Origin: a virus
IMG/VR virus record: IMGVR_UViG_3300005557_000003
Location: 1-32,130 of that record
Length of the DNA: 32,130 nt
Direction: 5' to 3' (one strand)
Below, piece after piece: positions 14,289 to 26,177 of this stretch. The notes under the pieces are model-generated. The model ran no database searches. It worked only from the letters and a program-made list of their open reading frames with translations, and had not been told where the DNA came from. Within the stretch, counting starts at the first letter, position 1. Every line of letters starts with the position of its first letter. The position numbers and the translations under genes were made by a program.

Positions 14289-14471
14289 TTAGTTAAAATT
14301 TTTTATTGAGCAAAGATGATTCTGAAGATTATTCATCTTAATATTTATTTCATCTTTCCATTTTCTCATTTCATTTTCAAAAATTCGGGCGTCTGCTCGA
14401 GTCTCTTGTCTTATCCACAAAAATAATCCAAAATTCCCTCCAACAATAGTTAGAACCTGTAGCCAATCCAT
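14289..14471 (-). CDS. Small membrane protein (MDWLQV family in this window)
   Basis: 60 residues with AAGGA before ATG 14471. The N-terminus MDWLQVLTIVGGNFGLFLWI is a single membrane segment and nearly matches the start of the 25992-26177 protein (MDWLQVMTIAGATVGSLWWM). The charged helical tail starts RQETRADARIFE, recalling SRAESRADYRHLE in the 26292-26522 protein, and ends with NLQNHLCSI, recalling DFHGRLCAI. So it is a third member of a small paralogous set, more than 11 kb from the other two. It sits 8 nt downstream of the exonuclease gene. Function unknown. Confidence 0.7.
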   Translation of the reverse strand: MDWLQVLTIVGGNFGLFLWIRQETRADARIFENEMRKWKDEINIKMNNLQNHLCSIKNFN

Positions 14472-14478
14472 ACTTTCC

Positions 14479-16808: not shown

Positions 16809-17015
16809 ATGGATTTAAGAGAATACGTTTTCAGAAAAAGAACGACCTATGATGAATTGTGTAAAAAAGTTGGATGTTCAAGAAATCATCTAAACAGAGT
16901 AGGGACTGGTGGGAAAATTCCTAGCCTTGTTTTAGCAAAAGTTATTGAAATGGTTACCGAGGGAGAAGTCACAGTTGCAGAACTGTTAAATCCTAATAAA
17001 GAAGACAATAAGTAA
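16809..17015 (+). CDS. Small Cro/YdaS-like DNA-binding regulator
   Basis: 68 residues. I start at ATG 16809, with GGAGG ending about 8 nt before it, not at the alternative in-frame codon at 16800. The protein is one helix-turn-helix domain: TTYDELCKKVGCSRNHLNRV forms the two HTH helices, followed by a helix reading SLVLAKVIEMVTEGEV and the end AELLNP. This arrangement (short HTH, then an SxxLAxxIE-like helix, then V-x-x-x-ELL) is typical of Cro/YdaS-type small regulators. It lies alone on the plus strand between the leftward recombination operon and the rightward replication operon, so it probably sets the balance between the two. A minus-strand structured RNA candidate ends about 45 nt past its stop codon. 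Confidence 0.72.
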   Translation: MDLREYVFRKRTTYDELCKKVGCSRNHLNRVGTGGKIPSLVLAKVIEMVTEGEVTVAELLNPNKEDNK

Positions 17016-17059
17016 TTTTTTTTGTCTTGTGCAGAAAGCATCCAAAAAGATAATTTATC

Positions 17060-17096
17060 AAAAAAAACGACCGAAGCGGAGCCATCCACTTCGGTC
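17060..17096 (-). terminator. Strong intrinsic terminator, leftward
   Basis: Arms 17069-17080 and 17085-17096 pair over 12 bp around a 4-nt loop, followed on the minus strand by eight T (17067-17060). The single non-matching position is a G-U pair in minus-strand RNA but a C-A clash in plus-strand RNA, so the hairpin is suited to leftward transcripts. Confidence 0.85.
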
Positions 17097-17295
17097 TGAG
17101 GTACACTAAAAAACTGATTGAGCTCCAGCTTCCACACCGCTCAATCCAAAACCAATAACGTTTTGAAAGGGATTTTTTATAAAACCCCTTTGTTGACCAC
17201 GGCATCTTCATCAAAAGAGCCGTGTATTTGAAAATGAGGTATGCAACCCCCCCATTTTTGTTTGTTCAGTCTAAGTCATAAGCAGAGACTAAACG
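17061..17295 (-). ncRNA. Candidate structured small RNA with intrinsic terminator
   Basis: On the minus strand a TATAAT lies at 17307-17302, and a run of stable hairpins follows: 17224-17198 (CACGGC/GCCGTG with an inner TCTT/AAGA), 17191-17166 (AAAGGG/CCCTTT), 17146-17116 (perfect 8-bp GATTGAGC stem) and the terminator stem 17096-17069. A run of eight U ends the transcript near 17060. The estimated length is about 235 nt. No convincing protein is encoded. It could be an antisense or regulatory RNA of the control region. A -35 box is not evident, and the 5' end is inferred from the -10 box only. Confidence 0.5.
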
Positions 17296-17354
17296 TTTGA
17301 AATTATAAGGCTCGAATGAATTTAATTAAACAGAAAAAAACTAAGACTGAAAAT

Positions 17355-17387
17355 AAAAAAACCCTTTATGCCTTTCAGCATAAAGGG
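17355..17387 (-). terminator. Strong intrinsic terminator, leftward
   Basis: A perfect 10-bp stem, CCCTTTATGC at 17362-17371 with GCATAAAGGG at 17378-17387, has a 6-nt loop and is followed on the minus strand by seven T (17361-17355). There is no T run on the plus side, so it acts leftward. Confidence 0.85.
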
Positions 17388-17460
17388 CCTCATTATTAGG
17401 AAATAATGATTACCGACTTTTTCTTTACGTAGAGGCGGCTATGTTGTAACCGTATCTACA
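17355..17460 (-). ncRNA. Second candidate structured RNA, leftward
   Basis: On the minus strand, from right to left: a two-tier hairpin (outer GTAGA/TCTAC at 17429-17433 and 17455-17459; inner GGCTA/TAACC with one wobble, 17437-17441 and 17447-17451; symmetric 3-nt internal loop; 5-nt end loop), then a 7-bp hairpin (17391-17397 with 17402-17408), then a terminator hairpin and U run. The 5' end is unknown; no convincing promoter was found, and it may reach up to about 17600. It could be a separate small RNA or a leader or attenuator of a longer leftward transcript. Confidence 0.4.
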
Positions 17461-17545
17461 AAAGAGAATATGAATCCAGAAATTTAAATGGAAGAAAAAA
17501 AACAAAAAATGAAAAATTTCCCGTTCCTACAATTGAATAAGTTAG

Positions 17546-17560
17546 CCGGGATGTCGGAAA
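17546..17560 (-). repeat. 15-nt inverted copy of the sequence inside the initiator gene
   Basis: CCGGGATGTCGGAAA here is the exact reverse complement of TTTCCGACATCCCGG at 18053-18067. It lies 64 nt before the initiator's start codon in AT-rich DNA, where such a GC-rich match is unlikely by chance. It may be an initiator-binding site for autoregulation. Confidence 0.7.
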
Positions 17561-17624
17561 CATTATTTGAAAAACAAGATTTACAAATTTCTTAACGAAT
17601 TATTGAAAATAGGATTATTGAAAT

Positions 17625-18662
17625 ATGAAAAATGAAGAAAGAAAAGTTGGGGGATCATCAACTCCCCCAACAACTACACACTGCGAACTAGATGACCTAG
17701 ATGGCCTAGATCGTAGTAAATCAGATGATTTTGCGCAAGCAACAATTGAAAGATGCCCGCATGATGGAGAAAATCCTTTTGCCCAAATTAGTAGGGATCT
17801 CATAAGAAATAAGACAATCAGTTTGGAATGCAGGATGCTTATTATTTACCTCCTGAGCATGTCCGATAAATGGAAAATCAAAATGACTCATTTGGTTAAA
17901 GAGTTTAAGGATCAGTGTGGTAAGCACAAAGTTTATGAATTAATGAACGAGGCTATTGAAGCTGGGTATGTCCGAAGAGAAGTGGGTAAAACTGGTAATC
18001 TTAGAAGTTTTGTTAAATACTATCTCTCTGAATATCAGCAGTTCAAAAAATCTTTCCGACATCCCGGTTTTCGGGATCCCGAACTTCGGCGTCCCGAAAA
18101 TGAGGACGCTAAAGAAGTAACAATAGATAAGAATAAACAAATGAAGAAAGAACTTATGTCGGACCCTCCTGCGTCGGGCCGACTCGCGCACCTTTTTTTC
18201 AATACACTTCAGAATATCAATCCAACCCAGAAACTTCCAAACTTTGACAAGTGGGCTAAGGAGTTTGACAAGATGATGCGTATCGATGGGCGAACCGAAG
18301 AGGGGATTACTGCAGTGATCAAACACATGGTCCATCTTCACAAGACCACAGTTACGGGGTATACCTGGTTTACTTGGGTTCAGTCTCCCGAAAAGCTCAG
18401 GGAGAAATACGATAAGCTTTCGGTGGAGATGAATACTAAGTCGATTATTAAAGTAAATTCTCCCGAAAATGATGAAAAATTAGCAGAGAAAGTTTTGCGT
18501 AAGTTCTCTAATATAAAAGGCATAACAGTAGGTTATAACTACATTGAATTTGATAATGGTACCAATGCTATCCCTACACACTTGGAGTTTGGAAGCAAAG
18601 ATTTTACGCCGAATGTTTTAAAAGAAGTTAGAAAAAGAAATTTACCAACGGATGGATTATGA
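17625..18662 (+). CDS. Phage replication initiator (winged-helix, O/DnaD-like)
   Basis: 345 residues. Residues about 55-125 (FAQISRDLIRN, then LECRMLIIYLLSMSD, then VKEFKDQCGKHKVYELMNEAIEAGYVRRE) form the helix-turn-helix of phage replication proteins that choose between regular and stress promoters or bind the origin. A short linker follows with five-residue repeats (HPGFR, DPELR, RPENE). A helical domain (about 185-260: NFDKWAKEFDKMMRIDGRTEEGI, then GYTWFTWVQSPEKLREK) resembles the C-terminal part of O/DnaD-like replisome organisers that load helicase. The linker repeats are also DNA repeats, as in lambda O, where the origin lies within the gene. The 3' end overlaps the next gene as ATGA. 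The ribosome site is weak. Confidence 0.72.
   Translation: MKNEERKVGGSSTPPTTTHCELDDLDGLDRSKSDDFAQATIERCPHDGENPFAQISRDLIRNKTISLECRMLIIYLLSMSDKWKIKMTHLVKEFKDQCGKHKVYELMNEAIEAGYVRREVGKTGNLRSFVKYYLSEYQQFKKSFRHPGFRDPELRRPENEDAKEVTIDKNKQMKKELMSDPPASGRLAHLFFNTLQNINPTQKLPNFDKWAKEFDKMMRIDGRTEEGITAVIKHMVHLHKTTVTGYTWFTWVQSPEKLREKYDKLSVEMNTKSIIKVNSPENDEKLAEKVLRKFSNIKGITVGYNYIEFDNGTNAIPTHLEFGSKDFTPNVLKEVRKRNLPTDGL
18053..18183 (+). repeat. Iteron-like repeats, candidate replication origin inside the initiator gene
   Basis: Three consecutive 15-bp units start at 18060, 18075 and 18090, each with TCCCG(G/A) followed by a variable stretch. TCCCG at 18062 also pairs with CGGGA at 18072-18076. Further GTCGG/CCGAC motifs follow at 18158-18162 and in the palindrome GTCGGGCCGAC at 18173-18183. 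The cluster is GC-rich in AT-rich DNA. Repeats in the linker region of an initiator gene are the usual form of lambda-type and many Gram-positive phage origins. Confidence 0.6.
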
Positions 18663-25937: not shown

Positions 25938-25991
25938 AGTTAATTAATATAACTCATGTTATCATCTTTTGTGAAATCGTTGGAGGTTTTT

Positions 25992-26177
25992 ATGGATTGG
26001 CTACAAGTTATGACTATTGCTGGTGCAACTGTTGGTTCATTATGGTGGATGCATAAGCAAACTTTTAATGAGATGAAAGACTTTCATGGCAGGTTATGTA
26101 CTTTGGAAGAAAGGTACATACAACTGATGCAAAGAGTTTTAGAAGGACAAAAAAAAGATAATGAGAAGAAGGAATAG
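25992..26177 (+). CDS. Small membrane protein with coiled-coil tail (cassette A, long)
   Basis: 61 residues from ATG 25992, with GGAGG at 25982-25986; an upstream in-frame ATG at 25956 lacks a ribosome site. Residues 1-20 (MDWLQVMTIAGATVGSLWWM) form a membrane anchor. The tail (KQTFNEMKDFHGRLCTLEER onward) is a charged helix with a single Cys. It is a paralogue of the proteins at 14289-14471 and 26292-26522. Its translation start region is nearly identical to that of the gene exactly 300 nt downstream. Function unknown; holin, antiholin and exclusion proteins are candidate classes. Confidence 0.7.
   Translation: MDWLQVMTIAGATVGSLWWMHKQTFNEMKDFHGRLCTLEERYIQLMQRVLEGQKKDNEKKE

Follow-up and report, generated by a model that had tools for sequence, protein, structure and literature searches.

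A predicted in-gene phage replication origin with one solitary, inverted copy of its element in the initiator leader

Why should a sequence that lies inside a phage replication initiator gene recur, in inverted orientation, in the leader of that same gene? The window analysed here is an entire 32,130-nt IMG/VR virus contig, which encodes a P22-like portal, a terminase large subunit, RecE/RecT-like proteins and a RusA resolvase. A preliminary description of this DNA had singled out a 15-nt sequence, TTTCCGACATCCCGG, shared between the initiator gene and the region upstream of it, and had proposed that the initiator uses both sites in the manner of iteron plasmids. We addressed what the two copies are, whether related phages have them, and what the upstream copy may do.

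The inverted 26-nt pair

The sequence TTTCCGACATCCCGG was verified at 18053–18067 on the plus strand, and its exact reverse complement at 17546–17560. While both copies of the 15-nt site exist, the true unit is longer than had been described: 17546–17571 on the minus strand and 18042–18067 on the plus strand are identical at 24 of 26 nt, with two mismatches. Scored without gaps (match +1, mismatch −2), this pair reaches 20, against a best score of 15 among 151 dinucleotide shuffles of the leader and gene. Since the match runs past the 15-mer and exceeds the shuffles, the observation is confirmed, the unit being an A-tract (TTCAAAnAAT) joined to an iteron.

Copies of the 15-mer scattered through the genome were considered and rejected, as the 32,130-nt record contains no further copy at up to three mismatches. 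Of 36 exact matches in IMG/VR, the sole one adjoining an initiator gene is in a sister contig of the window (L011), and the others fall in unrelated contigs. By itself the 15-mer is uninformative across collections. Besides the 26-nt pair, one inverted pair in the whole window scores at least 17, a 33-nt repeat at 14440–14472 and 25991–26023. Judged by eye, both of its copies seemingly encode MDWLQV(M/L)TI(A/V)G, which suggests coding paralogy between two small membrane/holin-like ORFs on opposite strands.

The predicted in-gene origin and its conserved element

The gene that carries the inner copy (17625–18662, plus strand) encodes a λ-O/DnaD-like protein of 345 amino acids. It matches phrog_2514 (2.7e-18), a DnaD-like helicase loader family, together with phrog_4880 (2.5e-15) and phrog_391 (6e-15), the families matched also including replisome organizer and O-like replication initiation proteins. 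By tblastn its C-terminal half is approximately 30% identical to φ80 and lambdoid O proteins. Together with an AlphaFold model, these matches uphold its earlier identification as a replication initiator. The predicted protein comprises a winged helix (residues ~40–134), a disordered linker (~143–180, pLDDT below 50), a helical C-terminal domain (183–274) and a small C-terminal α/β domain. A sequence search of the PDB with the initiator gave no significant match, and at the level of fold the model matched best, and weakly, domain 1 of Vibrio cholerae RctB (5ube, E=0.025), with further weak matches to Geobacillus primosomal DnaB in the PDB and to phage HTH/replication initiators in BFVD. Weak as they are, these fold matches appear apt for a modelled initiator. 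RctB itself differs from the window protein in being a chromosome initiator with several classes of site, and a sequence match between the two was not found. Near the N-terminus, at 17688–17714, 9-bp repeats (CTAGATGAC/CTAGATGGC/CTAGATCG) code for DLDGLDR.

The inner copy forms the start of three contiguous 15-bp units at 18053, 18068 and 18083, as had been described, and these tandem dyad units are the coding DNA of the disordered linker, between the DNA-binding and C-terminal domains. The 26-nt element at 18042–18067 (plus strand) consists of the A-tract TTCAAAAAAT, one unspecified nucleotide and the first iteron. The second iteron, TTTTCGGGATCCCGA (18068–18082, plus strand), is part of a perfect 14-bp palindrome, TTCGGGATCCCGAA, and the third is ACTTCGGCGTCCCGA (18083–18097, plus strand). 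To the right of the iterons an A-rich stretch at 18100–18155 is a candidate unwinding element, placed by analogy with λ; in a nearest-neighbour stability profile, 18100–18150 is moderately unstable, at around the least stable 10% of the window.

Approximately 30 homologous initiators were collected from terminase relatives and from scans with an initiator profile. These uncultured phages are diverse (~35–59% identity to the window phage in the initiator domain), and they share the in-gene element TTCAAAAAATnTTTCCGACATCC and the iterons. In nearly all homologs the linker codons contain dyad repeats, the sequences of which differ by branch; in the branch of the window phage the array starts with TTCAAAAAAT-n-TT(T/A)(C/A)CGACATCC and continues with 15-bp units such as GGATCCCGA. 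Codon choice within the element is strongly biased. For Phe, TTC is used in 22 of 25 cases, compared with 33% in the remainder of the same genes (p=2e-8); for Lys at the third codon, all 23 of 23 cases are AAA (p=1e-4); and 12 of 14 Arg codons are CGA, compared with 15% in the background (p=9e-9). As the p-values assume independent phages and the sequences are related, the strength of the bias that they give is an upper estimate. Such a bias across diverse phages indicates that the DNA of the element itself is very likely under selection.

Conservation of the linker iterons across the relatives supports the assignment of the inner copy to an in-gene origin, and homology and anatomy together point to an origin of the λ/φ80 kind inside the initiator gene. 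The setting is a phage of the λ-O/φ80/SPP1-G38P kind and not an iteron plasmid, with which it had first been compared. In λ (O and oriλ) and in φ80 (gene 15), as here, tandem dyad iterons lie where the initiator gene encodes the linker, with an A-rich stretch to their right, and the C-terminal domains are related. The annotated binding sites of λ O and φ80 gp15 fall in the same part of the gene as the window iterons, and λ-type binding sites within the initiator gene have been described (PMC7466680). The window phage differs from λ and φ80 in having iterons of its own sequence that recur every 15 bp, a conserved A-tract element ahead of them, a winged helix closer to those of DnaD/RepA-like phage initiators, and an extra, inverted copy in the leader. 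The origin would thus be of an ordinary kind, and the extra site is what is unusual about it.

The leader copy in the window and in related phages

The leader copy of the 26-nt element (17546–17571, minus strand) lies 53 nt before the start codon. A 27-position matrix was derived from the sites that the other phages carry within the gene, leaving the window phage out. It gave 34.0 bits for the inner copy and 29.1 bits for the upstream one, while 100 shuffles of the leader reached at most 9.2. A score so far above the shuffles, and derived from other phages, identifies the upstream copy as a family-specific site and not a chance match, in keeping with the earlier view that a coincidental match is improbable and that both copies are the same site. 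When the iterons alone were used as a matrix, just the three in-gene units and the upstream site exceeded the highest shuffle score. By sequence, then, the upstream copy qualifies as a full-strength family element.

We searched for the same arrangement elsewhere. Across 145 related loci (1.50 Mb, some of it overlapping), all other matches above 17 bits were in the sense orientation and inside initiator genes. Leader sequence of 300 nt or more was available for 23 relatives, none of which has a comparable site within 600 nt, and a leader copy of the phage's own in-gene repeats was found in none of ten named phages, including λ, φ80 and TP901-1. Inverted A-tracts of 12–13 nt at −250 to −540 in three relatives (L122, L131 and L133) were rejected as leader copies because their common context, TTTTTTGAATTTATGGCAAG, resembles the start of another gene. 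Among 22 relative contigs searched whole, 14, many of them near 40 kb, have the element at a single position that fits the initiator gene; in the remaining contigs it has diverged beyond three mismatches. One relative (L048) carries two adjacent in-gene copies. A second, distal origin was sought in the same 22 contigs at up to three mismatches and none was seen. These results suggest that, among the phages compared, the window phage is the only one with the element in its leader, and that an ordinary in-gene phage origin is accompanied here by one solitary, inverted fourth site. They also argue that the leader copy is no conserved control of the phage family. The sister contig L011 begins inside the initiator gene, which leaves the window as the one genome of this phage with leader sequence; IMG 3300026532 contains a sister contig.

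The leader is bounded on its left by a plus-strand terminator-like hairpin at 17362–17387. Upstream of this, and preceding the initiator, a small Cro/CI-like HTH gene (16809–17015, plus strand) has weak matches to Pfam HTH_31/HTH_3 and to PHROG transcriptional repressors. A promoter scan of the leader gave no σ70-like promoter, a result that bears on hosts with promoters of that type; scans of genome contigs for the host gave no relative. A pattern match located a minus-strand terminator-like hairpin at 17646–17671, in codons 8–16 at the 5' end of the initiator gene, which is possibly the end of an antisense transcript; an antisense RNA ending there could be compared to λ oop or φ80 M3 RNA.

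The closest relative by terminase, L040 (91%), aligns with the window at 16991–17123 and 17320–17387 (76–78%); homology stops at the terminator-like hairpin, and 17388–17624 has no counterpart. The initiator of L040 is a different one with iterons of its own, and all that L040 keeps is an orphan winged-helix ORF; this indicates that the replication module was exchanged, and strong differences between the initiators of the relatives indicate that this has happened often. The orphan ORF (L040:4777–5112) resembles the N-terminal domain of the window initiator, and the different initiator (L040:5108–6139) has iterons TGGGCAAAAGTGCCCA, with TTCAAAAAATATTTCCGA inverted beside them. Repeats of other types were seen in two further leaders. 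In L138 (on the same contig as L067), the leader of an initiator starting at 2974 has three copies of CTTTAATATAG, two direct and one inverted, a sequence absent as an in-gene iteron, so that the array is operator-like but of another kind. In L041 a 40-nt tandem repeat (TAATCAATTAAATGAGTGAACCTAATACATAACCCCCATG) at positions 1–91 directly precedes the initiator start, at the contig end, and is possibly an assembly-end effect.

Possible roles of the leader copy

That the initiator uses both sites, as the preliminary description proposed, is a reasonable reading of these sequences. The origin would consist of the A-tract, the three 15-bp dyad iterons and then the A-rich unwinding region, all in the linker-coding stretch. 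As the protein accumulates, its winged-helix domain would bind the inverted copy in the leader, at which a promoter is presumed to lie, and binding would modulate, and probably repress, transcription of the initiator gene; a loop of approximately 480 bp might form between the leader copy and the in-gene iterons. If the initiator does bind the copy, the placement of the copy 53 nt ahead of the start codon points to an initiator that modulates its own expression. A single λ-type iteron can be bound by O (PMC7466680). The F plasmid offers a parallel, as its RepE binds the oriS iterons and also, between repE and its promoter, a set of inverted repeats (PMC13028717). Both systems have initiator sites at two places, the origin and the region preceding the initiator gene; in the window these are assigned by sequence, with 17546–17571, at 29.1 bits, as the site before the initiator's own gene. 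In F, however, repE does not contain the origin, and the operator takes the form of an inverted repeat, whereas the window has a predicted origin within the gene and a single copy of iteron type in the leader. One site only, no σ70-like promoter in the leader scan and no such copy in the 23 relatives or the ten named phages count against this reading. On balance we place binding of the leader copy through the winged helix, with modulation of the initiator's own transcription and perhaps looping to the in-gene iterons, at just short of an even chance. The more specific proposal, that the phage senses initiator concentration through one transplanted leader element, and that an inverted loop of 0.5 kb couples transcription to origin occupancy, is somewhat unlikely.

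Autoregulation by the initiator has to be weighed against a copy with no function at all, a short inverted duplication left by template switching or recombination while replication modules were exchanged. The absence of the copy from all relatives argues for a recent origin and keeps such a relic under consideration, as do the stretch 17388–17624, which lacks a counterpart in L040 between flanks aligning at 76–78%, and the strongly differing initiators that speak for frequent exchange. However, the limits of the copied unit are approximately those of the conserved unit (TTC...CCCGG), which argues for function; a random duplication would be unlikely to share these limits or to keep 24 of 26 identities and 29 bits. 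The surrounding DNA has no further gene homology, and the copy was rejected as the remnant of an inverted initiator gene, since homology ends with the element and there is an in-frame stop. We regard a functionless relic as unlikely.

Distinctly unlikely, in our estimate, is a role for the copy in origin architecture, as an outlying site that flanks 17561–17645 and aids unwinding, loops to or handcuffs the iterons, or blocks a fork. The AT-rich stretch that runs from the copy into the gene at 17561–17645 has 50-nt windows among the least stable 1–2% of the window by the nearest-neighbour profile, although AT-rich leaders are common. A precedent exists in SPP1, whose G38P binds both oriL, within gene 38, and the distant oriR (PMC3485210, PMC6316719); the proposed action of oriR is to halt forks and set off recombination-dependent replication (PMC3485210, PMC6316719), and the window phage likewise encodes RecE/RecT-like proteins and a RusA resolvase. 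The two phages are alike in having an initiator with an in-gene origin and a second binding place (PMC6316719), the latter assigned in the window by sequence. The oriR of SPP1, however, comprises an array of repeats together with an unwinding element of its own, 12–13 kb away, whereas in the window the inverted site is single and its distance from the in-gene origin is 0.5 kb, so a dual origin of the SPP1 type is not what is seen here. The single place of the element in 14 relatives' contigs also speaks against such a role.

A small ORF of 35 codons (17488–17595) spans the copy, but a chance match, or one that merely coincides with coding sequence of this ORF, has a negligible probability. The ORF lacks a convincing homolog among the related loci, and this explanation is effectively refuted by the comparisons with shuffles (20 against 15 for the repeat score and 29 against 9 bits for the matrix from other phages).

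To our knowledge, λ-type phages control their initiator through the early promoter and regulators and not through the initiator itself. Against this background, a site for the initiator in the leader of its gene would act as a simple self-limiting switch, and the sensing loop, if true, would be a plasmid-like autoregulatory circuit acquired by one phage lineage. One phage with the leader site and relatives that lack it provide a natural before-and-after comparison. More widely, the constant element (TTCAAAAAATnTTTCCGA and iterons) in the coding linker of approximately 30 diverse uncultured phages may serve as a signature for locating their origins.
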